36,038 bases of DNA, taken from IMG/VR virus record IMGVR_UViG_3300005613_000211, positions 1-36,038 of that record. One strand, written 5' to 3'. Source of the DNA: a virus. The position numbers and the translations under genes are program-made. Below are positions 14,358 through 34,140 of the stretch, in pieces (the stretch's first letter is position 1; every line of letters begins with the position of its first letter). Below the pieces are notes generated by a model, which saw only the letters and a program-made list of their open reading frames with translations, was not told the origin of the DNA and made no database searches.

Positions 14358-15839
14358 TTAAATTTCTTCTGCAAACTCAAATGTGACACCTACATTCGCA
14401 CCCTGTCCATTCTCTCTGTGCATTGTGAAAATGAAAATTTCTCCAGGCGTCAAATATATATCTGTTCGCCCCTCGAATAATGCACTGGTATTATAAGTTG
14501 TATCTTGCCCAACTCTCGAACCAAAAACAGCGGGTGTCGCCTTTGTTGAATCAAAAGTAATTGGCGTGGTGACTATTGGTGTATTATAAACTAAATACTC
14601 TAAATGTCCGTCACCGTAATCTCGCCAAACTTGATCATTTAAAGTGATAGCTGTCTCATCTCTTGTCGCCCAAACTCTTAACATTGATTTTTCACTTGAA
14701 TAACCACTTGCCAACAACGCTAAGACGTCGCGAGTATTTCTTTTGCCATCTACTGTTTTTTTACTTCTTACAACTAAAATAGGTTGATTGAACCCCGTAA
14801 TAGCTACTTGACCCGATTCATTTTCAACTTGAATTGACCCGTATGTCTTACCATTAGTATCACCACCCTCAGATGTAATATCAACACATCCAGCTTCAAG
14901 AATCACTTCATCACCTAAATTAACACATTCAAACGCAATTGGATTCGCGGGATTAAACATTGTTAACTCTGTCTTCGTACCTAAATAATTGATAGCTTGT
15001 ACTTCTTGAAGATTTATAAAGAATTTATAATTTCCAACTCCTCTCCATTGCATTTGAATATCATAGATATTCCCTTTTTCAAAATCAATAACAGTACTTA
15101 TAAATCTTTCATCATCAGTTGTGATTAAATCAACAGTCGTTCTAACCACTGCAAATAAAGAATCTCTTCTTAGATTAAAAAAAGAACCACTTTCATTTGT
15201 AAAATAACCCCATTTTCTTGAGCCGTTATTTTCTGGATTTGGTAAAAAAACCGCAGTTGAATATAAGTGACCCCTATTTGGTTGATACCTTGGGTTTCTA
15301 TAAGTATCAAGGCAAGTTTTATCATTTAGTGTTGATCCTGATGTTAAATGTAATTTTCCATTGACACTTGTCGCATTTTCAATCGCACGCTCAACTCCAT
15401 TAAATGTTTCCTTCCAAGTTGTCACAGGAACATTAAATGTAAACATTCCGTGCAATATTGAGTAATCAGTAATAGATTTTGAACGCCCCCAAGCATCATA
15501 CCCTAATTCATTCTTAGAAATATTAAATGATGTTACATTTGTAGAACTGTTTATTAATTTTACAGCATCATCAACATTTGTTGGATTTATTCCATTTATA
15601 GAGAAATCAGAAAAATTTGATGTTGTTTTATAATCACTTGAAGAATTCAGAGTTGTATTTTTAATTCTTACGGTGTTATCGTCAACTTCACTTGCAATTA
15701 ATTGATTTCCTGTTGTAACACCATTAATTTCATATGCGGATTCATTTACAATTGTATTTATTGTAAGTACTTGCCCAAATGAACTGATATATATCAGTAA
15801 AAATGATATTAATAAAAATAATTTTTTTAGATTTTTCAT
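14358..15839 (-). CDS. Receptor-binding/tail protein with signal peptide
   Basis: This 493-aa protein starts with a textbook Sec signal peptide (residues 1-22, KKLFLLISFLLIYISSFGQ) followed by beta-rich sequence. The body (AWGRSK near 114, RYQPNRGHLYS near 184-194, CVDITSEGG near 316-324) resembles tail-fibre or spike proteins of other phages, and the position after the gpD-like hub fits a host-contact part. A signal peptide is unexpected for a virion protein assembled in the cytoplasm. The start overlaps the hub gene stop as ATGA. Codons and G+C are higher than the core genes (CGCC, GACGTCGCG), indicating exchange. It could instead be a secreted phage protein. Confidence 0.65.
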   Translation of the reverse strand: MKNLKKLFLLISFLLIYISSFGQVLTINTIVNESAYEINGVTTGNQLIASEVDDNTVRIKNTTLNSSSDYKTTSNFSDFSINGINPTNVDDAVKLINSSTNVTSFNISKNELGYDAWGRSKSITDYSILHGMFTFNVPVTTWKETFNGVERAIENATSVNGKLHLTSGSTLNDKTCLDTYRNPRYQPNRGHLYSTAVFLPNPENNGSRKWGYFTNESGSFFNLRRDSLFAVVRTTVDLITTDDERFISTVIDFEKGNIYDIQMQWRGVGNYKFFINLQEVQAINYLGTKTELTMFNPANPIAFECVNLGDEVILEAGCVDITSEGGDTNGKTYGSIQVENESGQVAITGFNQPILVVRSKKTVDGKRNTRDVLALLASGYSSEKSMLRVWATRDETAITLNDQVWRDYGDGHLEYLVYNTPIVTTPITFDSTKATPAVFGSRVGQDTTYNTSALFEGRTDIYLTPGEIFIFTMHRENGQGANVGVTFEFAEEI

Positions 15840-16855
15840 AATTTTCCAACTTTTAAACCAAGTGTGATTGTTTGCTTGTAACCAACTTGTGTATTATAAT
15901 TTTTTACAACTTCATCAATTTTATATTTTCCATTTCTTTCTGGTGTTCTTTCATCAATCAAATGTGCAATATCACCATGATTAATTGAAGGTGAACCAAA
16001 TGTTGTGATTTTACCTGTAACACCTGTATAAAACAGTTTTGGAAGTCTTTGTTTAACTAAATTAGTTAACGCATTAAGACTTAAATCAGGAACTTTCAAT
16101 GTGTTTAAAACACCAATTGGTTTGATTGTACTGACAACAATTTCATTTTCTGGAAGATTATCTTTATATGTTGCAAACACTTCAAATTTAGTTCCATTTT
16201 TCTGAATTGAAATTCCGTGTGAAATAACACCAATATCTGTATCATTTTGAAATTTCAAATCATCACTTCCTTGAACCACGTTTTCTTGAATATTCAACAA
16301 TATTTCTTTTGTATCTTCATTATCAATCAATTCTGTGTTTATATTTAGAACACCTTCTTTGAAATTACTTAAAACACCAAGTTTTGATTTTAATTCATCG
16401 AGTACATTTATCAATGTGGCGTTTTCTGAAACACGCCAATCACCAATTTCTGCATCAAGTATGTTTGTTTCACCATTATAAAATGTTTCAATTAGTTCTT
16501 GAATTGTTGTGTTTTTCAATGTTGTTGCAGGAAGTGATTTTCTTTTCAATTGAAAAGATTCATCTTCCAATTTTAGGACCAACGGACTGTTTTTGTCAAT
16601 GAACGAAATATACCCTTCAAACTCTTTTACTAAATTAGGAAAATAACCTAAATAAATAACAACTTTATCACCAATATTTATTTTATCAATCAGATTTTCT
16701 TTTCTTCTTAACCTATTAGGAAAAGTCACTGTTGCAGTATCTGTGTAATTTGTTCTTTTTTTAACTATCTCAACAGATGTGACAATGTCGAATTTAAACT
16801 TTTCTTTTCCTGTGTTCCTGTCAAATATTGATATGTCTGATTGTTTTCTTAACAT
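15836..16855 (-). CDS. Baseplate hub, late control gpD-like
   Basis: 339 aa. It follows the P2 gpD / T4 gp27 hub pattern: an N-terminal barrel (TNYTDTATVTFPNR near 36-49, IGDKVVIYLGY near 61-71), a short helix-rich insertion (ETFYNGETNILD), and a C-terminal barrel with GVTGKITTFGSPSINHGDIAHL (281-302) and YKIDEVV. The hub joins tube and spike. It lies two bases after the tape measure stop, the usual order TMP, hub. Its C-terminal region lacks any lysozyme domain. Confidence 0.75.
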   Translation of the reverse strand: MLRKQSDISIFDRNTGKEKFKFDIVTSVEIVKKRTNYTDTATVTFPNRLRRKENLIDKINIGDKVVIYLGYFPNLVKEFEGYISFIDKNSPLVLKLEDESFQLKRKSLPATTLKNTTIQELIETFYNGETNILDAEIGDWRVSENATLINVLDELKSKLGVLSNFKEGVLNINTELIDNEDTKEILLNIQENVVQGSDDLKFQNDTDIGVISHGISIQKNGTKFEVFATYKDNLPENEIVVSTIKPIGVLNTLKVPDLSLNALTNLVKQRLPKLFYTGVTGKITTFGSPSINHGDIAHLIDERTPERNGKYKIDEVVKNYNTQVGYKQTITLGLKVGKL

Positions 16856-16857
16856 AA

Positions 16858-18426
16858 TTATCTTGCAATTTCAATATCTGCTAATGCTTCAAGAAGTGCT
16901 TGTTCAATCATTTCTTTAACACTTGCAGGTGCTTCTTTTATATTTTCAGTTTTTATATTGAAATTTTCAACTAATTTATTAATGTTTATATTAAATTGTT
17001 TTGGTGCTGCAGATGTCACTGTTTGTTGTGAATTCTTTTGTCCACCACCTGCACCAACTATTCCTGAACCAAGACCAACACCACCTTCACCTGCAACACT
17101 TCCAATTGATCCAATTCCTATTCTTTCACCAATTTTTGATTTTTCCTGTTCTTTTCTGAATTCTTGAACACCTTTTGAAAAACCTTTTGAAAATGTATTT
17201 CTGATGTTTTTTATCATTTTTCCAACACCTGGAATTTTTTCAAGAAGGTCCAGAAATTTATTAAATGCATTCATAGCAAGTTCAATTGGTTTTTGAAGGA
17301 AATTCATTATTGCTTCACCTATGAATTTTAAACCTTTCCACAATTCCTTCAATCCTGCAATAAAAACTTTAAATAAGAACTTTGCAACTTTTGAAACAAC
17401 TGCAAAAACACCTTGAAGAATTCCACGAAATGTTTCTGATTGTTTATAAGCAACAACAATTATTGCCACAAGTGCTGCAATTGCAAGAATTATCAATCCA
17501 ATTGGATTTGCAAAAAGTGCTATATTTAAAGCCCATTGAACTGCAGTCCATATCTGTATTATTCCAACAAGAACACCTATAATTGCAACAAAAACACCAA
17601 GTATTTGAACAAATGTAGTGAATACACCTGTGTTTCTTTCAATTACATCTGCAACTTTTGAAATTAATTCTGCAAAGAAATTTATAATTGGAAGGATTGC
17701 ACCACCAATTACTTCTTGTATATCACCAAGTCTGTTTGATAACTGTGTTAAACCACCTTTTCCTGCTTTTGCTGCTGCTTCTGCAGAACCACCAAATTGT
17801 GTTTCAAGTTCTTTTAAAATAATATCTTGCGCTTCTGCAATTCTGTTTGTTTCTTGAAGTGATTTAATCACTTTTATTTGGTCATCAGAAAATTGAATTC
17901 CAGACCTACTTAATGCAGATAAATTTTTCTTTGGGTCATTTAATGCTTTTCCAAGTTGAAGTGCTGCACCTTTTGTGTCACCACCCATTCTTGTAGCAAG
18001 ATTCAATGCAGCCATTTGTGTTTTATCAAATTGACTTTCTGTAATATTAGTAAATGTCAATAGTTGTGCAGTGACATTTTGAAGAATATCTTCATCACCA
18101 AATATTGTTTTCTTTTGAAGGTCTGATGCTTGTTTGGTTAATTCTTGAAATGTCTTTCCTGAAACATTTTTTGTTGAAATTAAACCCTGTCTTACTTGTG
18201 CTTCTGCTTTTGCTTGTTTATCAAATGCATCAATTGATTTTTTTGCAAACACACCAATTGCCGCTGCTGCTGCTGTAGCTGCAAGTGCTGTTCCTGCAGA
18301 AATAGATTTATTCACTTTCTTAACTTCATTATCAAGTTTATCAACTTGTGTTGATGCTTTCTTGATACCTGATGAAAAAGTTTTATCTTTTAATGTTAGA
18401 ACGTATTCAACAATATTTTTTGGCAT
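16858..18426 (-). CDS. Tail tape measure protein
   Basis: 522 aa. The N-terminal helical part has an Ala-rich hydrophobic stretch (42-60) and a prophage TMP motif with KSIDAFDKQAKAEAQVRQGL and the ALNDPKKNLSALSRSGIQFS region (162-181). The centre has strong hydrophobic segments (about 236-330) for membrane insertion, then a Gly-rich linker (about 440-470, GGVGLGSGIVGAGGG) and a helical end. With 0.15 nm per residue, the usual tape rule, the tail would be near 80 nm long. It follows the frameshifted chaperone gene, as expected. Confidence 0.88.
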   Translation of the reverse strand: MPKNIVEYVLTLKDKTFSSGIKKASTQVDKLDNEVKKVNKSISAGTALAATAAAAAIGVFAKKSIDAFDKQAKAEAQVRQGLISTKNVSGKTFQELTKQASDLQKKTIFGDEDILQNVTAQLLTFTNITESQFDKTQMAALNLATRMGGDTKGAALQLGKALNDPKKNLSALSRSGIQFSDDQIKVIKSLQETNRIAEAQDIILKELETQFGGSAEAAAKAGKGGLTQLSNRLGDIQEVIGGAILPIINFFAELISKVADVIERNTGVFTTFVQILGVFVAIIGVLVGIIQIWTAVQWALNIALFANPIGLIILAIAALVAIIVVAYKQSETFRGILQGVFAVVSKVAKFLFKVFIAGLKELWKGLKFIGEAIMNFLQKPIELAMNAFNKFLDLLEKIPGVGKMIKNIRNTFSKGFSKGVQEFRKEQEKSKIGERIGIGSIGSVAGEGGVGLGSGIVGAGGGQKNSQQTVTSAAPKQFNININKLVENFNIKTENIKEAPASVKEMIEQALLEALADIEIAR

Positions 18427-18650
18427 TATAAAGGAAATTTTGCAGGTTTATTTTTATCACCATTCAATCTTCTGGAATCAAATTCAATTGCATAAACAAC
18501 TTGGTCATATAATTCAAACCAATCTTCCATGTCAAGTGCATTTAATTCTGTCAAAGATGTATGAAAATAAAAATGAAGAAGTGCATTTGCTTTTTTAAAC
18601 GCATTTGCAACATCTTCATTTTCATCTATACTTAATTTGTTTAATTTTTT
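18426..18650 (-). CDS. Tail assembly chaperone, -1 frameshift extension
   Basis: This open frame of 75 codons (74 aa: KKLNKLSIDENEDVANAFKK..., ending KPAKFPL) has no useful start of its own; its first ATG is at residue 41. It joins the upstream chaperone frame by a -1 slip at T TTA AAA (18650-18656), making a 205-aa fusion. This is the G/GT or E/E+E' design found in front of tape measure genes in most long-tailed phages. The fusion recruits the tape measure to the tail tube. The stop overlaps the tape measure start. Confidence 0.8.
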   Translation of the reverse strand, partial: KKLNKLSIDENEDVANAFKKANALLHFYFHTSLTELNALDMEDWFELYDQVVYAIEFDSRRLNGDKNKPAKFPL

Positions 18651-19042
18651 TTTAAACGACCTTGTAAAACTTCAATAACTTGTGCAGCTTGAAGTGCTGC
18701 TGCAAATCTTAATTCTTCATTGTCAAGAATTTCATTATCACCTGCAACCCAGCAATTTTTCAAAATATGATTTCCTGCCTTATACATATCAGGATCATCT
18801 TTAATGCTGCTTAATGCACCAAGTGCTTTTGAAAGAACGTATGGTTTAGGGTGGTTTAAAATGCATCCAAGACCATTTTCAAGAACTAATATTTTAGTCT
18901 TTGAACCTTTTGGAACTAATTTTCCGTATTTTTCAAGGATTTTTTCTTCAATTAAATCAAAGAATCTTTCCTGTTCTTTTTCGTTTAAATCATCAAATTT
19001 TGCTTTCAGAATCTGATTATCTGTTTTTGTTATCTCACTCAT
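18641..19042 (-). CDS. Tail assembly chaperone (G-like)
   Basis: A 133-aa, mostly helical protein (acidic N-terminal half, then NHPKPYVLSKALGALSS, DPDMYKAGNHILKNCWVAGDNEIL and an ELRFAAALQAAQVI helix) typical of tail chaperones between the tube and the tape measure. The last codons CGT TTA AAA AAA AAT TAA contain nine A's and a slippery heptamer. The ordinary product stops there and a minority of ribosomes shift -1 into the extension frame. Confidence 0.8.
   Translation of the reverse strand: MSEITKTDNQILKAKFDDLNEKEQERFFDLIEEKILEKYGKLVPKGSKTKILVLENGLGCILNHPKPYVLSKALGALSSIKDDPDMYKAGNHILKNCWVAGDNEILDNEELRFAAALQAAQVIEVLQGRLKKN
18650..18656 (-). promoter_or_regulatory. Programmed -1 frameshift site
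   Basis: On the minus strand the heptamer T TTA AAA in the zero frame fits X XXY YYZ and is followed by five more A. The zero frame stops seven bases downstream, at 18641-18643. The -1 frame stays open to 18426. Confidence 0.75.
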
Positions 19043-19057
19043 GATTATTAATTAAGG

Positions 19058-19483
19058 TTAAATGAAATCTATTCCTGCAATAATTAAAGAATATGTTCTT
19101 TTCACTTCTGGATCATCAGTTGCAACTTCAATTCCATCATCAGTGAATTCACAATTTTTTACTCTTATTTTTGAAACACTAACTGAATTGTCTAACACTG
19201 CTAAAACTTCAAAAACAGGTATGTTTAAAAGTTCACGTGTTGGACTTAAATTTCTTAATTTTAATGTTTCAGAAAATGATAAATCAATTGATGCTTCATA
19301 TTCTTTTGTTGCACGACCTCTTGAAACAGGTTCATCAGAAAATCCTTTGTTGTTTGTTTTTTCTTGTGAAACTGTTGCTGTCAATGCAGAAACACCTGCA
19401 ACATTGATTCCTGCAATTATCAGTGAAATATCTGATGCACTGAATGCTTTTCCGTTTATTAATACTTGTTTATCTTGTGCCAT
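19058..19483 (-). CDS. Tail tube protein
   Basis: 141 aa, beta-rich, with the inner-tube layout: N-terminal strand (QVLINGKAFSASDISLIIAG), a long arm with SQEKTNNKGFSDEPVSRGRATKEYEASIDLSF (about 42-73), one helix and final strands (IRVKNCEFTDDGIEVATDD, TYSLIIAG). Its position right after the sheath and before the chaperones is that of the tube in all contractile phages. The family identity comes mainly from position. Confidence 0.75.
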   Translation of the reverse strand: MAQDKQVLINGKAFSASDISLIIAGINVAGVSALTATVSQEKTNNKGFSDEPVSRGRATKEYEASIDLSFSETLKLRNLSPTRELLNIPVFEVLAVLDNSVSVSKIRVKNCEFTDDGIEVATDDPEVKRTYSLIIAGIDFI

Positions 19484-19487
19484 AATT

Positions 19488-20717
19488 TTAACCTATTTTT
19501 GGAACAAATCCAATATTAACAATAATTTCACGTGCTACACCAACAGGAACAATTTTCACTGTTATCACAACCTGTGAAGTTGCAAGAACATTTTGATTTG
19601 GGTCAATTAAAACACTTCCTTCTGGAAGTTTTCCTGTTGCTTGGTCAACACTTATTTCACCATCTTGTGCCATTTGTTCAAGTGCTGTCAATGCTGCATT
19701 TTCAAACCCAAAAATTGTTGTTTCACTTAATTGTCCAGATGTTGCATCAACATATAAAGGTGAATTGATAAATGGCAATAATTTTTGTCTTACAAGTCTA
19801 ACTGCTTTTTGAATAGTTCTTGAGTTTTCAATATAAGCAAAATCACTTGTTGCAAGTGTTGTTTGTGGTGAATCAATGTAAAAAGTACCTGTGATTTCCT
19901 GTCTTTTTATCATTAATAAATAACCTTGACCAGATATTGTTTCAATTAATGCGTTTGAAATATCTTTAACAAGTTGACCATTTGCAAATGCAGGTTCTTG
20001 AAATTCAACTGAATCTGCAATATCAAATTTATCAACCCATCCAATGTTTTCATGAACATTTGAAAGCGCTATTGTTCCAAGTGTAGTTCCTAATGCTGTG
20101 ATACTTTGACCAACTGAATCAAATAGTTCTTTTCCTGTTCCAGAACCATCTTGTGCAATATCTACTGAAACCCATCTTTTATTTAATGCACGTAAATCTG
20201 CAAGTGTTGATAAATCTGCAACACCTGAAATGTCTGCACCTAAAATTCCGATTGTTGGTCTATCTTGACCAAGTAATGTGTCAATTGAAGAACTAACTGC
20301 ATTAACAAGTGAAGATGCAAATGCAATGTCATAATAAACACCTATTTGTCTTAACTCACCATCTGCAAAGTTCTGTAAATCTTCAACCTGTTGACCACCA
20401 TCATACACACCTGCATTTTCATCAAATAAATAAATATAAAGAACACCTGTGTTTCCTGATTTATTTAAAATTCTGAAATATTCTGAAATGTGATAATGTG
20501 CAATCTTGGTTGCATCGTTGGCTGAATCACTTGTAATTCCAAGTGCTTCTGCTTCTTGAAGTGTGAAAACTTTTTTAAATCTGTCATCTGTGGCAAAACC
20601 TGCAGGAAGTTGTGCATCGACAAATGGAAATGCAATTCCTGAAAAATAATCTTTTCCAGGTATTGCACGACCAAGTCCACCTTCTTGAATATTAAATGTT
20701 ATTGCATTTATTGGCAT
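19488..20717 (-). CDS. Contractile tail sheath protein
   Basis: 409 aa. The N-terminal GGLGRAIPGKDYFSGIAFP (13-31) and domains with IGILGAD, DLSTLADLRALNKRWVSVDIA and the C-terminal YIENSRTIQKAVRLVRQKLLPFINSPLYVDATSGQL (298-333) match sheath proteins (DUF2586-like in Bacteroidota). The last part gives the handshake arms that link neighbouring subunits. Presence of a sheath makes this a myovirus. It is somewhat short for a sheath, so it may lack an outer decorating domain. Confidence 0.85.
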   Translation of the reverse strand: MPINAITFNIQEGGLGRAIPGKDYFSGIAFPFVDAQLPAGFATDDRFKKVFTLQEAEALGITSDSANDATKIAHYHISEYFRILNKSGNTGVLYIYLFDENAGVYDGGQQVEDLQNFADGELRQIGVYYDIAFASSLVNAVSSSIDTLLGQDRPTIGILGADISGVADLSTLADLRALNKRWVSVDIAQDGSGTGKELFDSVGQSITALGTTLGTIALSNVHENIGWVDKFDIADSVEFQEPAFANGQLVKDISNALIETISGQGYLLMIKRQEITGTFYIDSPQTTLATSDFAYIENSRTIQKAVRLVRQKLLPFINSPLYVDATSGQLSETTIFGFENAALTALEQMAQDGEISVDQATGKLPEGSVLIDPNQNVLATSQVVITVKIVPVGVAREIIVNIGFVPKIG

Positions 20718-20732
20718 AACTTAATTCAAATT

Positions 20733-20990
20733 TTATTTTTTAGTTTCTTCTTTTTTCGCTGCAGGTGCTTTTTTCGCTGCAGGTGCTTTTAGTTCAACAT
20801 CTTCACGTGTGATTTTATGTGTTTCAAAATCATCAACAAATCTTGGTGGAACAACATAATAAAAATGACCATTACCACGTGCATACATAACTTTTACACT
20901 TGGTTTTTTAAAATAACCATTCTTTTTTGCAATTTCAATCAATTCTTGTTTTGATTTTCCTTGAACTTTCTTTTCTTCTGATTTTTTCAT
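20733..20990 (-). CDS. Small basic protein with KAPAAK repeats
   Basis: 85 aa. The core (SVKVMYARGNGHFYYVVPPRFVDDFETHKITRED) looks like a small beta domain. The tail is two tandem copies of KAPAAK followed by KEETKK, encoded by an 18-base direct repeat (around 20757-20792). Proteins in this slot, between capsid and sheath, are often head-completion or head-tail joining factors. The lysine/alanine tail could bind DNA in the head. No family recognised. Confidence 0.55.
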   Translation of the reverse strand: MKKSEEKKVQGKSKQELIEIAKKNGYFKKPSVKVMYARGNGHFYYVVPPRFVDDFETHKITREDVELKAPAAKKAPAAKKEETKK

Positions 20991-21010
20991 GACTTATCTG
21001 ATTTTAATGA

Positions 21011-22027
21011 TTAAGGAACTAATGTTTCAATTAAAGCAACAACACCTTTTTCATCAGAACGCCCTGATGATGCACCAAATCTTACATTTGATGAAATGAT
21101 GTCTGCTTGATATTCTGGATTGTTTGGATCATAATAAACATTCACATTTCCTTCTGAACGTCTTACCATTTTTTCGTGCCAAAATAAAACACCACCAACT
21201 GATGTTGCATTTGGAACTAAAACTTGAACAGTTCTTCCACCAACAACTGCAGGTGTATAATCTATTTTAACAGGTGTTGCAGGAACAGCATCATCATAAA
21301 CGATGTTTGCACCAAGTCCTTCATTCCAACGTGGTTCATACCAATCAATACCAAGCCATCTTCCAATTGTTCCTTGCTTCAACAATGTGTCCATTCCTGT
21401 TTTTTCAAAATCTCTAAATTCAGGAATATTCATAATGTCATTCCAGAATGCAGGTGTTGGAAGCGCATACAATTTACCTGCAGGAAGATTCATTTTTTGG
21501 AATAAACCTTTTACATTTAAAATATCTGCTAACACTGCACGTTTTACTTGACCTGCATGTCCACCAACAACTTCACAAGTTCTTGTTGCTGTACCTGTTG
21601 TTTTTACCATTCTGGCAACTGTTGCAGGTGACCATTTAACTGCAGCATAATTTGCTACTTGTGTATTTAATTCAAGTGACATTTCTTCACGAATTTCTTG
21701 TTGTTTTGAATAAGACAATTCACCATCTTGATTGTTTTTATCAATCACAACAGGTGGAACAAAGAAATTCTGGTTTGCATACGTTTTTAACGTGTTAATT
21801 CTCTTAATTGGATCAAGTTTATCTGCTGCTGCAAGATTGTTTCCTGCATTATCATAATCAATTTGAACATTTCCAATTACTGCTGCAGCTTGTTGTTGTG
21901 CTTGTGGAATGTCAATTGATTCTGCACTTGATGGTGCATCTTTTTTTGAACGCTTGTAAAATGCGTTATCTGGGAAAAGATTTTTTTGTAAATCTCTACT
22001 AAATATTTTTACTCTTACTTCTGGCAT
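21011..22027 (-). CDS. Major capsid protein
   Basis: 338 aa, directly after the protease-scaffold gene. It has the flexible N-arm (about 1-55, including DAPSSAESIDIP), then helix and belt regions of the HK97-type fold: NQDGELSYSKQQEIREEMSLELNTQVANYAAVKW (98-131) is the spine-helix neighbourhood, and LFWHEKMVRRSEG (285-297) and the RFGASSGRSDEKGV end are typical. The N-terminal arm has no obvious large delta domain because the scaffold is supplied by the protease fusion. Identity is by fold pattern and position. Confidence 0.85.
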   Translation of the reverse strand: MPEVRVKIFSRDLQKNLFPDNAFYKRSKKDAPSSAESIDIPQAQQQAAAVIGNVQIDYDNAGNNLAAADKLDPIKRINTLKTYANQNFFVPPVVIDKNNQDGELSYSKQQEIREEMSLELNTQVANYAAVKWSPATVARMVKTTGTATRTCEVVGGHAGQVKRAVLADILNVKGLFQKMNLPAGKLYALPTPAFWNDIMNIPEFRDFEKTGMDTLLKQGTIGRWLGIDWYEPRWNEGLGANIVYDDAVPATPVKIDYTPAVVGGRTVQVLVPNATSVGGVLFWHEKMVRRSEGNVNVYYDPNNPEYQADIISSNVRFGASSGRSDEKGVVALIETLVP

Positions 22028-22053
22028 GATAATAATTTTAAAAGGTTGTTTTT

Positions 22054-23256: not shown

Positions 23257-23299
23257 AATGTAAATATATAAATATTATATTAATTAAATCAAAAAAATA

Positions 23300-24484: not shown

Positions 24485-24487
24485 AAT

Positions 24488-25018: not shown

Positions 25019-25831
25019 TTACAAGAAGTTTTTTATCTGTTCATCTGTTGGTGTTTTAAAACCAAAATTTATTTTTTGTTCCTTTTTAAATTCCTTTGGA
25101 ACATTATAATATGGGTGTTTTTTAGGAAATATCAATCCATTTTTTCCAACGTTTGTTCCAAATACAGGACTGTCATTCTTTGGAAATGTTCCTTTTGTTA
25201 CTGTTGCAGTTTCTAATTGTTCAACAATGCATCTGCAGTTCCAATCATTTGGTGGAAACCAAGTGTTCCAGAATGGATCATCAACACGTTTTATTACACC
25301 ATCAACTTCTGAATGGTCATGTCGTACCCTGTCATCACCAACAGTGATATACTTTAAATAAGGAAATGTTTCTTCATCTTCTTTAATATCTTTCCAATTT
25401 GCAACACTTTCTGATTGCCTGAACGCAGCCTGTTGTTCTGTTTCTAACCAATGTTTGTTATATTGATTATCAATTCCAAGTCCTATTTTCTTAAATTCAT
25501 TAAAAGGAAGAACTTCACCATCAACAAGAACATTTGATGATAATTCCAATACTTCTTGAAATGTCTTTGAACCTGAAAAAACTGAAAGATTGTTTTTCAT
25601 TTGTGTGGACCTTTTAAATCCAAATGTTCCTTTTTTAAAATCACTTGGAAGTCCAAATGTTTCTGCAACTAATGTTGACAATGCATAAAATGTAAATTCA
25701 AATAAATCTGCAGGTAAAACAAAAGGTGATATTTTTCCATCATACACATCTTGAATCAATTTATTTGAATTCTTGTATGTTGGTGTTTTTATTTTTTTTT
25801 CTGGCTCACCTATGTTTACTAATTCACACAT
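25019..25831 (-). CDS. Head morphogenesis protein, Mu gp30/SPP1 gp7-like
   Basis: 270 aa. The C-terminal half has the diagnostic YLKYITVGDDRVRHDHSEVDG...VDDPFWNTWFPPNDWNCRC pattern (177-220) of the phage F/gp7 head morphogenesis family, including the Cys pair and H-x-H. In Mu and SPP1 the protein enters the prohead in a few copies and helps assembly or DNA ejection. It stands after the fibre gene and before the gpG-like gene, as part of a Mu-like head set with the portal and gp36-like genes. Confidence 0.88.
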   Translation of the reverse strand: MCELVNIGEPEKKIKTPTYKNSNKLIQDVYDGKISPFVLPADLFEFTFYALSTLVAETFGLPSDFKKGTFGFKRSTQMKNNLSVFSGSKTFQEVLELSSNVLVDGEVLPFNEFKKIGLGIDNQYNKHWLETEQQAAFRQSESVANWKDIKEDEETFPYLKYITVGDDRVRHDHSEVDGVIKRVDDPFWNTWFPPNDWNCRCIVEQLETATVTKGTFPKNDSPVFGTNVGKNGLIFPKKHPYYNVPKEFKKEQKINFGFKTPTDEQIKNFL

Positions 25832-26671
25832 TTAACTTAAATCTAAAGGAATAACTGTAATTATTAATGATAAATCTTGTGTGTTTCCAACTGTTTCACG
25901 AAATAATACTTCAAATGATGTTGCAGTCATATTTTTAACCATACAAAACACATCATTGTCTAAATCCCAATTAGCATTATTGCTTTGAATAGTTAATATT
26001 GGGTGATATGATGTTGTTCCAATATTTGCAAAATTAACACGTATTCTTAAATCACCAGATGTATCATTTAAAACAACTGCAGATGTCACACCACCTTCAA
26101 CAGTTCCAACTGTACCACCTGTTCCAACTTGAATTCCATTTACTTTTCCTTGAAGTAAATTATTAATTATTAAAGGTTTGTTTTTTATAAAATCAGGTTG
26201 TGAATTATCTGCTTGTGTCCAATCTGATTGAACTTGAATCAATCCTTTTAACACATCAATCACTGTGTTCCCTTCAACACTTAAACCTGTAATTGCTGCA
26301 ACATTTGTTGGAACTGCACGGTTTTTTTCATAAACATTGTGTGTTGTTCCATCACGAAAATTCCTGTCACCATCAGGTGAAATTTCTGTTGTTACTTTTG
26401 TGAATTGATATAAATCAGTTCCAACTGTTCTTGGAACAACTGCTGCATCAACTTTTAACATTTCACCATTCATGAAAATAAAACCATCTTGAACAGAAAC
26501 ATCACTTCCTGCATTAATTATTGCATCAACACCTGAAACAATCATATTAACACCTTCACCAAGACCATCTGGAATTCCATTCAATCCTTCCCTGTTTGCT
26601 TCTGGCATAAAATTCAATTCATTTGATGTGATTTCTATTTCACCACCTGGAAAAAGTTTTCTTGTATTCAT
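25832..26671 (-). CDS. Tail fibre protein with NKP motif
   Basis: 279 aa. The middle contains SDWTQADNSQPDFIKNKP (148-165), a short motif found in many tail-fibre and baseplate proteins of Bacteroidota and Firmicutes phages. N-terminal strands (FPGGEIEITSNEL, GFIFMNGEMLKVD) would attach to the baseplate and the C-terminal 90 residues look like a globular beta tip (VFCMVKNMTATSFEVLFRE). It lies between gpI-like and head morphogenesis genes, separating tail genes from head genes in an odd order. Confidence 0.7.
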   Translation of the reverse strand: MNTRKLFPGGEIEITSNELNFMPEANREGLNGIPDGLGEGVNMIVSGVDAIINAGSDVSVQDGFIFMNGEMLKVDAAVVPRTVGTDLYQFTKVTTEISPDGDRNFRDGTTHNVYEKNRAVPTNVAAITGLSVEGNTVIDVLKGLIQVQSDWTQADNSQPDFIKNKPLIINNLLQGKVNGIQVGTGGTVGTVEGGVTSAVVLNDTSGDLRIRVNFANIGTTSYHPILTIQSNNANWDLDNDVFCMVKNMTATSFEVLFRETVGNTQDLSLIITVIPLDLS

Positions 26672-26677
26672 AATTTT

Positions 26678-27241
26678 TTATACTCTTATTATTAAATATT
26701 CTTGTGGTGCAATAACATAAATATCCATTAATGCACGTATTAATTCATCAGATTCAACAACATCAATTGGAACATACACAATGAATGATTTTCCTGCAAT
26801 GCTGTTTGGGTCATTTATTTCACTGTCAAGAAAAAGTGTTATTGGAATAGGATTTGTTTCACCATCCAAAAACAATTCAATTGGTGTTGGATCATCTTCA
26901 ATGTCAAGATATATATCTATTCCTTCAACAAAATTAAGGTCTAAACACGCAATTGTTATTCTTCTTAATGTATTATCATAATTATCATTTAAAAGTTCAA
27001 TCAAAGCCATTCTTTGACCTGTATAATTTAAACGTGTTGTAATAAATGAACAGAAATCAACCATTGTTTGATTTAATGGTTTTAACGGACTGAATAATGT
27101 CCATACATAATTTAAAAAAACAGTTTTTTCAATATCTGTTCCAATAGTGTATGACCAGAAATAAGGAAGAATTCTTTGAACTTGTTGTTCAAAATCAATT
27201 CCATATTTTGCTTGACATTCCTGTTCAATTGGTGTTGACAT
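26678..27241 (-). CDS. Baseplate protein, gpI-like (putative)
   Basis: 187 aa. It follows the baseplate J-like gene with one small gene between. The ending FIVYVPIDVVESDELIRALMDIYVIAPQEYLIIRV (151-187, split here for reading) resembles the C-terminus of P2 gpI-type proteins (xVPxxx...E-x-IxxLVDxYxxAGxxYxxxxx). Such proteins bridge the J wedge and the fibres. The N-terminal half is helical. The call relies on order and on the C-terminal pattern. Confidence 0.5.
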   Translation of the reverse strand: MSTPIEQECQAKYGIDFEQQVQRILPYFWSYTIGTDIEKTVFLNYVWTLFSPLKPLNQTMVDFCSFITTRLNYTGQRMALIELLNDNYDNTLRRITIACLDLNFVEGIDIYLDIEDDPTPIELFLDGETNPIPITLFLDSEINDPNSIAGKSFIVYVPIDVVESDELIRALMDIYVIAPQEYLIIRV

Positions 27242-27242
27242 A

Positions 27243-27473
27243 CTAAACTTTTTTCAATTCTTTTTTAACTTCCTTTATTTCATCAATGTTTATTTCAACA
27301 TCATATTTCTTTCCATTTACATCTGCAACACATTTTGTGTGAAGGAATTCACCACTTCCTGCATTTGCAATTGTTGTGACTATTATTGAAACTGCTTCAT
27401 TTACAACTTTTCCAACAAATTCTTCTGTTGTTTCCTTTTTAAGTTTCTTTTTGATTGATTTCTTTTTACTCAT
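27243..27473 (-). CDS. Hypothetical 76-aa protein
   Basis: A lysine-rich N-terminus (KKKSIKKKLKKE), a beta-prone Ala/Gly/Val middle (NEAVSIIVTTIANAGSGEFLHTKCV) and a charged end (EINIDEIKEVKKELKKV). One cysteine, no known motif. It sits between the J-like and gpI-like baseplate genes in the same operon, so a virion-assembly part is likely, but I do not recognise it. Confidence 0.55.
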   Translation of the reverse strand: MSKKKSIKKKLKKETTEEFVGKVVNEAVSIIVTTIANAGSGEFLHTKCVADVNGKKYDVEINIDEIKEVKKELKKV

Positions 27474-27484
27474 GATTGATTATT

Positions 27485-28342
27485 TTAATAATATGTTAAT
27501 GTATCATCAAGTGTTTCACCTGCTGCAGTTGAAACTGTGATATAACCTGCTTGTGCAGAATATTCTTCATTTACTTGGTCAATTACTTCTGTGTAAACAC
27601 CATCAAATGGTTTTATTTGAACACTTTCTGCAACTACATTTTCAACACCTTCAACAGATTGAATTGCATCTGTTAATTTCATTATTCTAAATATAGAACT
27701 GAAATTTTCTGCTTGAAATGTTTCCAAGAATGTGTTTATTGCATCTTGAACAGGAAAAGTTCCAGGTGTTAACAAACTTTCACCATTTGCAGGATTTATG
27801 ACTGTTGCATTCACACCAATACGATAATCAATAATTGCTTTGTCTGATTCTTGACTTACAAATGCTAATGGTGTACATGCAAATTTTTTCTGTGACCAAT
27901 ATTCCTTGAATGAAACCATTTCTGTTGTTGTTATAGGAATGGCATTTCCTGCAACATCATATTTTGCAACCTTAATGACTAAAAAACCATTTTCTTTGTC
28001 TGCAGATGCTAATTTGATGATTTTCTTGTCATCATCTTCAATGGCATACACAACATTTCCATCAATAAATTCAAGTGCATCACCATTTTGATATTCAAGT
28101 GATTCTGCTGCATACCATCTTGCAGTTCCTGTTGGAATTTCTAATGCACGAACTTCAACTTGTTTTTGGAATTCTTCCATTGAAATTTCATTCAAATATG
28201 ATGAAACTGCAAATGAATATATTAAATTTCGCCAAACAGAAACAAGACTTGTTGAATTAAGTCCATTTAATTCTGGTCTTGATTCCTTGTCAAGAATCAT
28301 TGCATCTTCAATTTCTTTAATTGTTCTTGGTGTAATGGACAT
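27485..28342 (-). CDS. Baseplate J-like protein
   Basis: 285 aa. The N-terminus (ITPRTIKEIEDAMILDK...LNGLNSTSLVSVWRNLIYSFAVSSYLNE) and the ALEIPTGTARWYAAESLEYQNGDALEF segment (69-95) correspond to the J family. A later DYRIGVNATVINPANGESLLTPGTFPVQDAINTFLETF (171-208) and the VEGV stretch are the usual C-terminal domain. These proteins form the wedge of the baseplate, like P2 gpJ and T4 gp6. It lacks a longer C-terminal region, giving a short J. Confidence 0.75.
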   Translation of the reverse strand: MSITPRTIKEIEDAMILDKESRPELNGLNSTSLVSVWRNLIYSFAVSSYLNEISMEEFQKQVEVRALEIPTGTARWYAAESLEYQNGDALEFIDGNVVYAIEDDDKKIIKLASADKENGFLVIKVAKYDVAGNAIPITTTEMVSFKEYWSQKKFACTPLAFVSQESDKAIIDYRIGVNATVINPANGESLLTPGTFPVQDAINTFLETFQAENFSSIFRIMKLTDAIQSVEGVENVVAESVQIKPFDGVYTEVIDQVNEEYSAQAGYITVSTAAGETLDDTLTYY

Positions 28343-28345
28343 AAT

Positions 28346-29644
28346 TTATTTTTTAAAATTTTTTTTATAGAAATCAACAATTTTATTTTTATTCACAAAA
28401 TTGAACCAAGATTTATTTTCCAATTCTTCAACATCAGTTTGTGTTGGTAGTTGGCCAACTTTTTCTTCAACAGGAATTCCTGTCTGTTCTGTCACAAATT
28501 CTGCAGGAACATCATAAATTCTTCCAATTCTTTCAATTATTTCAGACCATTCTTTTTTGGTTAATTTTTCAATGTGTTGATATGTGAATTTATCATCTGA
28601 TGCAATTGAAATTCCAAGTTTTGACATTTTAGGAATTAATTCATCATTTATTAAATTCTGAATCATATCTGCATAACCAACAATAAATGCATTTGTATTT
28701 TTTTGATGAACTTCACCTTGCGACCTTGAAGAACCTTCATCAAGTACCATTGTTGAACCAATAAGTGCTTTTGACATTTGTTTATCTGCAACATCAATAA
28801 AATCTTTAAAAGTGGCATATCCTGCACCTGTTGATGGTGATACAAATTCAATTTCATCATCATTGTCAATTACTGCAAATGCTGCTGTTGACATTGTTTG
28901 CATTGTATTAATGGCATTTTGCCTTCTGAAATTGTCTTTTATATTGGTTTTGGTAACTCTAAAAGGTTGACCAAATAATTCATTAAATATTGCCCAAAAT
29001 TGTGTGACTTCACGCTTTAAAATAAACCACTTTGCTATTTTATTGTATTTACCAAGTTTATATTGGTCACCAAACATTCTTGGATAAATAAATGTTGTCC
29101 AAGTTTTAAAGGGTTCATTTGCAAAGAAAATATTTGCGTTGTCATTGTTTTGGTCTGTTGCAATTCCATTTTGTTCAGGTCTTATATTATATCTTGGAAT
29201 TGATTTAATATAAGTGAATTTGTCATTTTCTATTGGTCCATATTGGATTCCAGAAAAACCCCATAAAATAGATTCAACTGTTATTGATAGCCATTCTTTA
29301 AACCAATTTGTTTTGAAAAGTGTTGCTAAATCAAGTTGTGGTTCATTATTTTTATTTAAAACAACAAAATCCATTGATGCAATTCCTTGATATATTGTTT
29401 CAGTTACTGCAGTAATATGTGTGTCAATTTCAATTGTTTCATAAATTTCAAGAAGTTCTTGTCTGTTTGGATCATCAACATCTTTTGCCATTTCATAGGC
29501 ATCTTGCCAATTTGATAATGATGCACGTACAACATTTGATGTTTCTTGTTTTAGTTTATTAAATACATCTGCACCTTTTGGAATTGGTTTATCTGCATTT
29601 GCAATTGTTTCAACTATTTTTCTGACTGCAGTGTTATTTTCCAT
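28346..29644 (-). CDS. Portal protein, DUF935/Mu gp29-like
   Basis: 432 aa. The layout matches the DUF935 portal family: VDDPNRQELLEIYETIEIDTHITAVTETIYQGIASMDFVV (36-75, split here), a middle FNELFGQPFRVTKTNIKD motif (219-236), and FVSPSTGAGYATFKDFIDVADKQMSKALIGSTMV (265-298, split). In Mu-like phages gp29 is the dodecameric portal through which DNA is packaged. It lies downstream of the terminase with the gp36-like gene inserted between, an uncommon place for that connector. Confidence 0.88.
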   Translation of the reverse strand: MENNTAVRKIVETIANADKPIPKGADVFNKLKQETSNVVRASLSNWQDAYEMAKDVDDPNRQELLEIYETIEIDTHITAVTETIYQGIASMDFVVLNKNNEPQLDLATLFKTNWFKEWLSITVESILWGFSGIQYGPIENDKFTYIKSIPRYNIRPEQNGIATDQNNDNANIFFANEPFKTWTTFIYPRMFGDQYKLGKYNKIAKWFILKREVTQFWAIFNELFGQPFRVTKTNIKDNFRRQNAINTMQTMSTAAFAVIDNDDEIEFVSPSTGAGYATFKDFIDVADKQMSKALIGSTMVLDEGSSRSQGEVHQKNTNAFIVGYADMIQNLINDELIPKMSKLGISIASDDKFTYQHIEKLTKKEWSEIIERIGRIYDVPAEFVTEQTGIPVEEKVGQLPTQTDVEELENKSWFNFVNKNKIVDFYKKNFKK

Positions 29645-30234
29645 TATATTGAAGTATTTCTTTTGACCACATATTCTGCATATCCTGATGCAAATGAATT
29701 TCCACTTTGTGTTGAACCATCTTCAACTTCTGGCAATAGGCCCAAATTTATTTGAACAGTTCCTTTTCTGATTTCTTTTAAATATCCAAGTTTTCCACCT
29801 CTTTGTTGTGAATCACCACCATCATATAAGACTTGAATCCAATTTGGTATTTCAGAACCATTGATTCTTGAATAAATAGTATATAAAACAAGTACAACAA
29901 TTATTTGAACAATTGCAGGATTTCTTGAATCTGCTTTTGTCCAGAACAAAACATCTGTTAATGGTGTATTTGCAGGAACATCTTGAATTGCAAAATACAA
30001 ATCAGTTCCATCAATAACACGTGCATTTTCTTCATATGTACCTGCAAGAACGTGTGTTTCTATTGGTGCAAATTCTTTGTCTGTGTCGTACCTGAACCTT
30101 AAATAAGATGCAGCAACTTCAATTGCAGACAAAAGTTCATTTTGCCAAATTGAATCAGTTGAATCAGTGATTCCATCAAGGTTTTCTTCTGATATAACAC
30201 TGTAAAAATCAGATTTTAATAAATAGTTGCCCAT
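29644..30234 (-). CDS. Head-tail connector, DUF1320/Mu gp36-like
   Basis: 196 aa. The N-terminus (YLLKSDFYSVISEENLDGI...WQNELLSAIEVAASYLRFRYD) and the central NPAIVQIIVVLVLYTIYSRING helix with the R-x-N-G-S and WIQVLYDGG segments are those of the Mu gp36 adaptor family, but with a longer insertion (66-100). It joins portal to tail. The ATG is preceded by TATATTTG four bases upstream, a possible leaderless promoter. Confidence 0.75.
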   Translation of the reverse strand: MGNYLLKSDFYSVISEENLDGITDSTDSIWQNELLSAIEVAASYLRFRYDTDKEFAPIETHVLAGTYEENARVIDGTDLYFAIQDVPANTPLTDVLFWTKADSRNPAIVQIIVVLVLYTIYSRINGSEIPNWIQVLYDGGDSQQRGGKLGYLKEIRKGTVQINLGLLPEVEDGSTQSGNSFASGYAEYVVKRNTSI

Positions 30235-30258
30235 ATCACAAATATAATTAATTAAATT

Positions 30259-31863
30259 TTAAATACCACCACGTGTGAAATTGTTTTTTTGTGGAACAAA
30301 TGAATGACTTAAATCATTATTTCTGTTAATAAATGTCATATATTCATCATAGAAACATTTTACAATGAAATATCTTAAATCATCAGTGAAGTGTCCGTGT
30401 TCTTCAAATGATATTCCTTTTGAATCAGTTACACGTTTTTTCAACATTCCACCATCTTTGTCTTTCTTGGTTTGAATATAGTCATTTGTTGACTTCACAC
30501 AACTAACATCAATTATTAATTCAATACCTGGAATAACACCACGCAATATTGCATTTACAAATTCACCAGACATTGCAACACTTGGTGCTTTTCTGAACAT
30601 TCTTTCTTCAATTGTTGTGACTTTTTTAATCTGTGAAACATATTTCTGCAGAAATGTTCTTTTTTCATCATCAATAGTATTTCTTTGTTTTGTTGTAGGG
30701 TCGCCATAAATAAAAACTGTCTGTTTATTATCAACTTTCTTTATGTATTCTGCAACTTTTTGACCTGCTTTTGTAGCTGTGTTGTATGGTTCAGATGCAG
30801 GAACTTCTGCAATTTGTCTAATTTCCCAAATATCACCAATTTTAATTGTTTGAAATATTGATGTTGCAATATATGGAAACACATTATTGTCAACTGAAAT
30901 GTGAAGTGCAGATTCAGGTGTATATGTTAATTGACCAATATGTCTTTCTGTATCAAAGTCTGAAAGAAATTCACCACCTGTTTTAATGTTTTTCGTGTCT
31001 TGTTGGTATTGAAAATAAAAAACTGATGGATTCACTGATTTAATCATTAAAAGTTCTTCAACAGTGTGTTTAAATGGCCATAATGCAGTTCCATCATTTT
31101 TTAATGCAGGCATTGATAAAACTTCCCATTCTTCTGGACCATCAATCAAATATCCTGACAAATCTTCTGCATCAACTCTTTGCATCACAAGGACAATTGG
31201 TGTTCTTCTTGAATTTACCCTTGAACGTATTGTTGAATCAAATCTTTCATTGACTTTTGACCTTACTGTTAATGATTTTGAATCTTCTGGTTTAATTGGA
31301 TCATCAATCACAATTGCACCACCAAATGAAAAGATGTCACCATCTTCTGTGTTTTCTGGAATAAATTCATCTAATGATTCAGATTCATTTTCTTCATCAA
31401 CAAGACCTGCACCAAAACCTGTTATTTGACCACCTGTTGATGTTGCATAAACACCACCTTTATCTTGTGTATACCATTTCTTTTTTGACTTGGAATCACG
31501 TTTTAATTGTCTATTAAATAACTTTTGATATTCTTCTGACTCAATCAATTCTTTTATTGCTTCTGAATTATCAAGCGCCAATGAATCTGAATATGATGTA
31601 TGTATGAATTTAGCTTTTGAATTAATTGCAAGACCTTGTGAAATGAATCCTTTCACTATTTGTTCAGTCTTTCCATATCTTGGTGCAATGTTTATGATTA
31701 ATCTTGTTATTTCACCACGCAAAACTGCATTCAATTTTTCTGCAATTAATCTGTGGTGTTCACCAATAACAAATTTTCTTCCATACTGATGTTTAAAAAA
31801 GTAACGTGTGAAAAACAGATTATCACTTAATAATTTAGCTTTTAAGAAACTTTGTTCTTTCAT
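30259..31863 (-). CDS. Terminase large subunit
   Basis: 534 aa motor that pumps DNA into the prohead. The ATPase has an adapted Walker A, IAPRYGKTE (59-67), preceded by GEHHRLIAEKLNAVLRGEITRLIIN. Walker B is GAIVIDDP (182-189), and the coupling motif lies further on. The RNase H-like nuclease includes VFIYGDPTT (about 389-397) and the acidic residues in the C-terminal half (LRYFIVKCFYD). The gene starts one base after the small subunit stop. As there is no obvious cos sequence and the contig is circular, headful packaging is plausible (inference). Confidence 0.92.
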   Translation of the reverse strand: MKEQSFLKAKLLSDNLFFTRYFFKHQYGRKFVIGEHHRLIAEKLNAVLRGEITRLIINIAPRYGKTEQIVKGFISQGLAINSKAKFIHTSYSDSLALDNSEAIKELIESEEYQKLFNRQLKRDSKSKKKWYTQDKGGVYATSTGGQITGFGAGLVDEENESESLDEFIPENTEDGDIFSFGGAIVIDDPIKPEDSKSLTVRSKVNERFDSTIRSRVNSRRTPIVLVMQRVDAEDLSGYLIDGPEEWEVLSMPALKNDGTALWPFKHTVEELLMIKSVNPSVFYFQYQQDTKNIKTGGEFLSDFDTERHIGQLTYTPESALHISVDNNVFPYIATSIFQTIKIGDIWEIRQIAEVPASEPYNTATKAGQKVAEYIKKVDNKQTVFIYGDPTTKQRNTIDDEKRTFLQKYVSQIKKVTTIEERMFRKAPSVAMSGEFVNAILRGVIPGIELIIDVSCVKSTNDYIQTKKDKDGGMLKKRVTDSKGISFEEHGHFTDDLRYFIVKCFYDEYMTFINRNNDLSHSFVPQKNNFTRGGI

Positions 31864-32342
31864 TAATATTCATTTTCAAGACTTTCATTGTATTCTTTCA
31901 TTTCTTCTTTTGAAAGTTCTTTTGAATTATAATTATAGTTTTTATTTGTATTTTCAACTTTATTTGAAAGACCAAGTTTTGATGCAATAATACTTGAATT
32001 AAATGCACCAACAACTGCACCTTCAAATTGTTGTGTTTCAATAATATTGCGTATTCTTTCAGTGACTGTCAAAAAATCTTTTTCTTTTTCATAGTTTTTA
32101 AAGGTGTTTACACTACAATCAAGATACAAACAAAGTCCTGTAATACTAAAAGGTGTTTCAGTTGGAATTTCAATCTTTTTGACTTGTGATCCACGAAAAT
32201 CTGTCTTTTTCCACTTTCTTTTTTGTGTAGATTCAAAATATTCCAACGCTTCTTTCCAAAGTTCATCAGGATTTGACCAAATCTTATTTCTTCCAGATTC
32301 AGTTCTTATTTTCCAATATTGATTTCCTTTTTCTGCAGCCAT
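31863..32342 (-). CDS. Terminase small subunit
   Basis: 159 aa. The N-terminus AEKGNQYWKIRTESGRNKIWSNPDELWKEALEYFE (3-37) and the PFSITGLCLYLDCSVNTFKNYE (64-85) HTH region are characteristic of a DNA-packaging protein family in Bacteroidota phages. QQFEGAVVGAFNSSIIASKLGL (103-124) follows. It binds the packaging start and presents DNA to the large subunit, whose gene overlaps by one base. Confidence 0.85.
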   Translation of the reverse strand: MAAEKGNQYWKIRTESGRNKIWSNPDELWKEALEYFESTQKRKWKKTDFRGSQVKKIEIPTETPFSITGLCLYLDCSVNTFKNYEKEKDFLTVTERIRNIIETQQFEGAVVGAFNSSIIASKLGLSNKVENTNKNYNYNSKELSKEEMKEYNESLENEY

Positions 32343-32463
32343 AATTTTGTTTTATCTGTACGGTGTAACAATTAGACTAATTGATTGATTTTCAATTCTT
32401 TTGATTTTACGAGTTATTATTCAATAATTCATTTATGTTTTTATCACAAGCCATTTTTTTGTT
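32343..32463 (-). other. Gap before terminase with degenerate small ORF
   Basis: About 120 bases between the fibre gene and the terminase. The minus strand has ATG at 32452-32454 and 15 codons (MACDKNINELLNNNS) to a stop at 32407. A second frame directly after it reads RKIKRIENQSISLIVTPYR. A single one-base shift would join the two into a protein of about 34 aa. It may be a decayed small gene or chance. No promoter or terminator stands out. Confidence 0.3.
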
Positions 32464-34140
32464 TTAATATGTGTTTGGTGTTTTATTAATTGTTAATACT
32501 GTACCAAGTCCGTTATTCATTCCTGTTGCGTTAGTCTTGAATGATCCGTAAACATTTACATTAAAACCTTCACCACTATCAATATTGTTCCAAAGTGCAT
32601 TTGGTGCATCTTGAACAAAGTTAGAGTTTGAGAAATTAAATGTTTGAGCACTTAAATTTATATGATCCCCTATATTTTGCAAATAACTACTTAAAAATAT
32701 TGTTGAATTTACTATTGACATCCCTTTCGTTACGCTTCCTCGGTCTGTTATTTTACCGATAAAACCGTTGAATATATATTCCCCATTAATATCAAGCGAA
32801 TAGCTTAAATCACTCATTGTTCCGCTTATCGTTCCATTTCCTGCGTATGAAAAAGAAGGACAAGAAAATATAACATCGTCAACATTTAGGTTTTGTGAAT
32901 AATTATCATTTATTAAATTAGTACCACTATACTTTTTAATTGGATTGTAATAATCTGCAAATGTACTTTCAAGAGTTAATGTATATGTGTTTGAAATAAC
33001 TTCATTGACCTTCAATTTAAAATATGTTGTTATATCATTTCTAAGCCTAAAACCGAATGTCTTAGATTCGAATCTTTCAGCTATAAAATAGCCAGAATAA
33101 CCAATTAATCTAACTGGTGAAGTTGCTTCCGTATAAAAATAATCACATTTTATGAATCCCGTATCTACAAGTGATGACGCTGAAGAACCAAAAAACCCTG
33201 AAAAACCACTTTGAAACGCTTTTAAATGCAATTCTCTAACATTAATTTTTAACAATGATGGTCTTAAACTTATTCCGACACTATCTTCAAATAATAAAAT
33301 GGAATAAGGTGCTTCAATTTCAAAATAAGGACAATTCACTTCCAAGTCTGTTCCTAAATTTAAGAACCTAAATGTCCCCGAATTTGGCGTTGTTATTTTA
33401 ATTGGTCTGTTAGGTATTACTGACAAATCCCGAATACTTGAATCTAAAAAATACAAAGTCCATAACACCCCATTATCTATTGGTAAATCATTATAAGCTC
33501 CGTTATCCGTTTGATATGGTTTATTTGCATTGCCCAATTCACCTGTTAAGTCATTACCATTTACAGTGTCTATATAAACCGTTAGTGGCAATAAGGGATT
33601 CAAATCATTTGCAGTAATAAAAGGATTTACACCATCTTCACCATCATTTGTTAATTCACTTGTTAATGTTGGAATATTAAAATTTGTTATTGGTCCAGAT
33701 TGTAAATTTCCACTTGCATCTGTAAAAAGGTAATTCAATGAAACACCATCATCACGTGTGTTTTGATAATTTGAAAGTGTTACATTGTTAGAAATTACAC
33801 TATTTAAACTTTGAAGTGTTCCTGATGTTGTTATATTTCCTGTATGATTTATATTTCCAATTCCTGTTATATCAAAATTGTTTAAATCAAGATTTCCACC
33901 AAGTTGTGGTGTTGTATCATCAATTAAATCTTGAAGAAAATCTGTTAAATTTAATTGTGTTTTAAAATCTGTGAATGCTGTTGCAGAAACAATGTCATTT
34001 GAATCTTTTGTCAATAAAGAATCAACTGTTCCAAGATTTGGTGTTTTCTTTAACTTTAATCTGTGGTTTAAAGTTGTTGTTTTCTGTGAAATTGCAAGTG
34101 TTGAAATTAACAATGCAATTATTAAAATTAATTTTTTCAT
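32464..34140 (-). CDS. Tail fibre/spike protein with signal peptide
   Basis: 558 aa from the ATG at 34138-34140; a longer frame to 34167 overlaps the upstream gene and adds a charged stretch before the signal. Residues 1-19 (MKKLILIIALLISTLAISQ) are a Sec signal peptide with a clear cleavage site. The next segment, DDTTPQLGGNLDLNNFDITG (near 79-98), is a classic phage fibre repeat. Residues past 180 look like a beta-helix or jelly-roll tip that binds or cuts the receptor. The last 370 residues are encoded in sequence richer in CCG, CGT and CCC than the core, so the tip was probably exchanged. A signal peptide on a fibre is odd. Confidence 0.7.
   Translation of the reverse strand: MKKLILIIALLISTLAISQKTTTLNHRLKLKKTPNLGTVDSLLTKDSNDIVSATAFTDFKTQLNLTDFLQDLIDDTTPQLGGNLDLNNFDITGIGNINHTGNITTSGTLQSLNSVISNNVTLSNYQNTRDDGVSLNYLFTDASGNLQSGPITNFNIPTLTSELTNDGEDGVNPFITANDLNPLLPLTVYIDTVNGNDLTGELGNANKPYQTDNGAYNDLPIDNGVLWTLYFLDSSIRDLSVIPNRPIKITTPNSGTFRFLNLGTDLEVNCPYFEIEAPYSILLFEDSVGISLRPSLLKINVRELHLKAFQSGFSGFFGSSASSLVDTGFIKCDYFYTEATSPVRLIGYSGYFIAERFESKTFGFRLRNDITTYFKLKVNEVISNTYTLTLESTFADYYNPIKKYSGTNLINDNYSQNLNVDDVIFSCPSFSYAGNGTISGTMSDLSYSLDINGEYIFNGFIGKITDRGSVTKGMSIVNSTIFLSSYLQNIGDHINLSAQTFNFSNSNFVQDAPNALWNNIDSGEGFNVNVYGSFKTNATGMNNGLGTVLTINKTPNTY

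Follow-up and report, generated by a model that had tools for sequence, protein, structure and literature searches.

Predicted Sec signal peptides on two putative host-binding proteins of a contractile-tail phage and on virion fibers of other flavophages

Two genes of IMG/VR record IMGVR_UViG_3300005613_000211, here called A and B, encode proteins that begin with Sec signal peptides and look like Bacteroidetes substrates of the Sec pathway and signal peptidase I (SPase I), with predicted cleavage before a glutamine. The record was analyzed over its whole length of 36,038 bases, referred to below as the window (Table 1). Predicted signal peptides of this kind recur on annotated virion fibers of flavophages. 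We propose, as a tentative reading that we place only just short of probable, that A and B are host-binding virion proteins that are routed through Sec, cleaved, capped with pyroglutamate, and docked on tail stubs around the time of lysis.

Signals were called by a custom scan and by reading the sequence by eye. The product of gene A starts with MKNLKKLFLLISFLLIYISSFG^QVLTIN and that of gene B with MKKLILIIALLISTLAIS^QKTTTL (^, predicted cut). Both have a charged n-region, a hydrophobic core, small residues at positions -3 and -1, and glutamine at +1 (FG^QVL in A and IS^QKT in B). A glutamine immediately following the SPase I cut is known as the Bacteroidetes Q-rule, and in these bacteria a periplasmic cyclase converts that residue to pyroglutamate (PMC5837995; PMC10653852). 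By the scan, A and B were the only 2 of 46 window genes with a signal and +1 glutamine. Shuffled N-termini of the window proteins gave this combination in 0.05% of 20,000 trials, and the same scan found it in none of 155 open reading frames (ORFs) taken from other phage loci, most of them marine, and in none of 171 ORFs encoded on contigs of gene A relatives. A preliminary description of the window had assigned Sec signals with S-Q and G-Q sites to both genes, and this is borne out; as far as sequence can confirm it, the signals are real and far from chance.

Since that first reading used sequence alone, the signals might have been products of chance or of wrong start codons, with the true proteins starting downstream. 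The ATG of gene A overlaps the stop codon of the upstream hub gene (ATGA, positions 15836 to 15839), and the next in-frame start is codon 129, already within the conserved domain. The ATG of gene B stands 10 nucleotides past the upstream stop, behind an A-rich leader (ATAAAAATAAAAAA); a TTG at 34167, listed by the ORF finder, lies upstream of it, and further down codons 10 and 43, both TTG, are the only other in-frame starts. The ATG starts thus appear secure, and the sequence offered no start downstream of the signals, as the preliminary description had considered, beyond those just listed. Together with the low rate in shuffled sequences, this makes chance or a wrong start very improbable, a reading refuted as far as sequence allows. 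Two other classes of exported protein were considered. Llp-type phage lipoproteins (superinfection exclusion) were ruled out for A and B, since the +1 residue is glutamine and there is no lipobox cysteine, and the C-terminal sorting domain of type IX secretion cargo was not found on either protein (NCBIfam and Pfam, above threshold).

Outside the window, signals were found on proteins annotated as virion components. The comparison phages were picked by hand and form a small sample, and virion status by tandem mass spectrometry (MS/MS) is that annotated by the depositors. Adjacent blocks of MS/MS-annotated virion proteins are present in Cellulophaga phages phi10:1 (gp091 to gp094), phi19:1 (gp101 to gp104), and phi18:3 (gp085 to gp087). 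All 11 proteins carry Sec/SPase I signals, and 10 have glutamine at +1, the exception being phi19:1 gp104 (FG^K); for phi18:3 gp085, the site (GYS^Q) was identified by eye. Eight other MS-annotated phi10:1 proteins (portal, capsid, tape measure, and others) and 19 MS-annotated ones of phi14:2 had no signal, and none was seen on the capsid, portal, and tail-tube proteins. The same kind of block was seen in phi13:2, phi19:3, phi46:3, Nekkels_1, and Ingeline_1. As in the window, the structural proteins with a signal and +1 glutamine in phi10:1, phi19:1, and phi18:3 (Assiduviridae and Pachyviridae) and in Ingeline (Duneviridae) sit distally in the tail operon; unlike them, A and B show no lengthwise homology to the blocks, and only a short fiber motif of B is held in common with Ingeline_1 gp31, a signal-bearing protein annotated as structural. 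The suggestion in the preliminary description that two such genes reflect a real strategy is supported beyond the window by these 11 proteins. Its concern that exported fibers would be lost from virions apparently does not hold, because the same proteins are annotated in virions, and we infer that late attachment, which it had also raised, fits signal-bearing virion proteins best.

The preliminary description had further seen tail-fiber motifs in the bodies of both proteins, which stood for B and failed for A. In a profile search, residues 105 to 417 of A matched phrog_1645 (virion structural protein; E value of 2.7e-23). The predicted structure was good for residues 122 to 493 and all beta (pLDDT [predicted local distance difference test] of the body mostly 80 to 95), and a structure search returned concanavalin-like lectins and glucanases as the top solved matches and, among viral ones, haloarchaeal tailed-virus proteins such as that of Halogranum tailed virus 1 (HGTV-1). 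HGTV-1 gp10, annotated as a virion structural protein, and a protein of Vibrio phage phiKT1024 belong to phrog_1645 and share the domain and fold of A; unlike A, the phrog_1645 relatives examined have no signal, and their genes lie near portal, terminase, or other genes. Relatives of A come mostly from uncultured viral contigs and have the domain in common from about residue 110, with differing upstream parts; for the N-arm of A, which is unique, no relatives were found. The gene stands between the hub and the lysis cassette, and in other viruses its domain is also found near head genes. A GH16-type glycosidase, suggested by the fold, was rejected because the ExDxxE catalytic motif was not found, and a toxin receptor-binding function was dismissed because the matches mirror the common concanavalin-like/LG fold at about 10% identity. 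On the structure model, A is a virion-protein domain with a lectin-like (concanavalin-like) fold and not a classical fiber.

Gene B, by its sequence, looks like a fiber. Its motif lies in the mature N-terminal part and matches marine-phage fibers with E values down to 7e-16; no relatives were found for the rest of B, and its single-sequence structure model was poor (pLDDT of 37). B has no N-terminal virion-attachment domain of its own, and a domain of the gp9/gp10 type is encoded in the separate gene directly upstream, whose product matched PF07880 (5.2e-05, just under the gathering score) and phrog_677 (5.8e-09). In five marine-phage contigs (L031 to L035), a gp9/10-type adaptor and the fiber motif (GG-LDLNNFDITG) are fused in one polypeptide that has no signal, whereas the window has two genes, the second of which (B) carries one. 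The fusion is a hint that the adaptor and B act together, and only a hint, as the motif is common. Small signal-less proteins also precede the flavophage blocks (phi10:1 gp090, which is MS annotated, Ingeline_1 gp30, and phi19:1 gp99); they resemble the window adaptor in size and position, not by homology. A third fiber-like gene of the window, which encodes an H-like fiber and serves as an internal control, has no signal.

The host of the window phage is most likely a flavobacterium (Bacteroidota), judging from the likeness of its sheath (41% identity) and portal (about 28 to 29% identity) to those of Winoviridae phages of Flavobacterium. A survey of flavobacterial phage fibers, proposed in the preliminary description, gave a divided answer. 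By family, structural fibers carry signals in Assiduviridae, Pachyviridae, and Duneviridae and lack them in Winoviridae, Forsetiviridae, and crAss-like phi14:2; no such signal was found on fibers of 11b, FCL-2, P12024S, RAP44, Danklef_3, B40-8, immuto, and Panino. The predicted fiber signal is thus a recurrent option rather than a rule, and the window departs from the habit of its nearest phages. Two further observations concern such phages. The Maribacter phage Colly_1 'tail fiber protein' (L054:6923-8929) has collagen-like and DUF7151 repeats and, if an upstream ATG is the start, a lipoprotein signal (TLVG^C), and an exported OmpA-family protein is encoded directly after it. Flavobacterium phage FCL-2 encodes, remote from its tail genes, a small Q-rule exported-type protein in the style of a host 'tail fiber domain' (L041:45363-45806; STYS^QVGIATTTPTETLDVNG).

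The major capsid proteins of the Winoviridae phages lotta8-1 (L058:20810-21892) and FPSV-S1 (L059:11142-12239) have a long hydrophobic, signal-like N-terminus, which the capsid protein of the window lacks. Such N-termini call for care when signals are read from sequence. Because capsids form in the cytoplasm, such N-termini lend some support to the view that the signals on A and B are silent, acquired with host-type secreted modules, and that most of the protein trimerizes in the cytoplasm ahead of targeting and follows the usual tail route with its hydrophobic end buried or trimmed. Nor do the relatives of A or the spikes of podophages have a signal: virion proteins of phi14:2 (gp097, by MS) and phi17:2 (by similarity) share 44 to 49% identity with the phi10:1 gp093 spike domain, and both lack one. 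The capsid N-termini, however, have no Q-rule site, and the signal and +1 glutamine are kept in diverged homologues, where unused signals should decay. Thus, phi18:3 gp085 is 41 to 51% identical to phi19:1 gp101 and Ingeline_1 gp31 over the mature part and 50 to 53% identical over the signal, which all three retain. We regard silent signals as improbable.

By eye, a third window protein has the signal anatomy of A and B (177 amino acids; MKKITLILLLFTQIVIS^QQF); it was missed by the scan because its hydrophobic run contains a glutamine. It has no Pfam or NCBIfam match, and its alternating pattern and terminal phenylalanine suggest that it is probably a phage-encoded outer-membrane beta-barrel and perhaps a superinfection-exclusion or receptor-masking factor. 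The presence of this protein is compatible with another view, in which A and B are not virion parts but exported proteins resembling lectins or adhesins. They would cover the surface of the host or debris and adhere to particles as these are purified, and they could mask receptors, exclude superinfecting phages, serve as decoys, or handle exopolysaccharide. The lectin fold of A, signals that appear fully functional, and the 'tail fiber' of Colly_1 with its lipoprotein signal and exported OmpA neighbor would fit as well. Yet A and B sit in the structural operon beside the hub or the adaptor, signal-less homologous spike domains are virion proteins elsewhere, and in phi10:1 the signal-bearing proteins make up 4 of the 12 MS-annotated virion proteins and lie in one block, which is much for carry-over. 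We consider non-virion export unlikely.

For virion proteins docked from outside the cytoplasm, the following course may be envisaged. A and B would be translated late and exported through the host Sec pathway, where SPase I would cut them before the glutamine and the new N-terminus would be cyclized to pyroglutamate, as in exported proteins of the host. They would fold outside the cytoplasm and join stub-bearing tails once lysis opens the inner membrane, the stub being the adaptor for B and perhaps the hub end for A. While the signals, starts, gene order, and domains can be read from the DNA, we infer the export, cleavage, and pyroglutamate, the time and place of docking, and the presence of A and B in virions. 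A broader form of this proposal, that some Bacteroidota tailed phages finish their virions outside the cytoplasm with fibers that are Sec exported, cut, pyroglutamate capped, matured in the periplasm, and docked at lysis, we put forward with more reserve, as possible. Several points weigh against the course envisaged for A and B. Their export, cleavage, and virion location are argued from sequence and the annotation of others, and the MS/MS evidence was taken from the depositors' notes rather than from spectra, peptide coverage, or abundance. No signal was found on tail proteins of the nearest phages, the Winoviridae phages lotta8-1, FPSV-S1, and fF4, or on 18 relatives of A whose N-terminus could be read. 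A benefit specific to the periplasm was not found among O-glycosylation motifs and cysteines: the motif D[ST][AILVMT], considered as a reason for export, was not enriched, and the proteins checked have few cysteines. To our knowledge, exported fibers docking on tail stubs have no precedent.

The first 123 bases of the record equal its last 123, so it is probably a complete circular map of ~35.9 kb (G+C content, 30%). Profile searches identified the gene set of a contractile-tail phage (sheath, hub, tape measure, portal, head-maturation protease, and terminase). Hub and portal scans found close relatives only in contigs L020 and L057, both of which end before genes A and B. Around the endolysin, three small membrane proteins (12918 to 14341, minus strand) are likely holin and spanin-like genes. 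The group II intron is intergenic, with no gene obviously interrupted, and adjoins the joint of the record. A diversity-generating retroelement acting on fibers was rejected because the reverse transcriptase (RT) is part of this intron; phage target proteins of such elements are reported to have no signal peptides (PMC6199706).

Table 1. Genes and features of the window (^, predicted cut; aa, amino acids)
Feature	Positions	Strand	Remarks
Group II intron	123-1855	-	RT/maturase ORF 216-1478; Rfam domain matches
Third Q-rule exported-type protein	2585-3118	-	Probable outer-membrane beta-barrel
Endolysin of lysis cassette starting right after gene A	13296-13682	-	phrog_1768, 5.3e-08
Gene A, 493 aa	14358-15839	-	Sec signal; N-arm, aa 23-110; phrog_1645 virion domain, aa ~105-493
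Signal peptide of gene A, 22 aa	15774-15839	-	Predicted cut SFG^QVL, fits Q-rule
Baseplate hub	15836-16855	-	phrog_4930, 8.8e-44; no signal; directly upstream of A, 4-nucleotide overlap
H-like tail fiber, P2-like J-I-H cluster	25832-26671	-	phrog_35342, 3.1e-10
Gene B, 558 aa, fiber-like, Sec signal	32464-34140	-	No full-length relative found
Fiber motif of gene B, DDTTPQLGGNLDLNNFDITG	33862-33921	-	Common to marine-phage fibers and Ingeline_1 gp31
Signal peptide of gene B, 18 aa	34087-34140	-	Predicted cut AIS^QKT, fits Q-rule
Candidate adaptor, T4 gp9/gp10 N-terminal baseplate-binding domain and short C-terminal part	34151-34498	-	No signal

The textbook view is that tailed phages assemble entirely within the cytoplasm. 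We found no literature account of tailed-phage virion fibers as Sec substrates or with signal peptides, subscription papers and preprints lying outside the search. The lyase-domain proteins of Ingeline and Nekkels have been noted to carry 'signaling peptides', without an interpretation as fiber export (PMC8776804). Exported phage endolysins are known, namely Lys44 of fOg44 and the signal-arrest-release (SAR) endolysins (PMC6116005); as proposed for A and B, these are phage proteins exported before lysis by a host-type signal, but they are lysis enzymes and not virion parts, and the predicted signals of A and B are cleavable Q-rule signals and not SAR anchors. If fibers are indeed exported, host export, processing, and envelope state would become determinants of infectivity, phage fibers would bear an N-terminal modification made by the host, and one would have to explain a second assembly step outside the cytoplasm. 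The idea can be tested now in cultured Cellulophaga phages, for which virion proteomics already exists. In practice, a gene of a Bacteroidota phage should not be set aside as nonstructural on account of a signal peptide.

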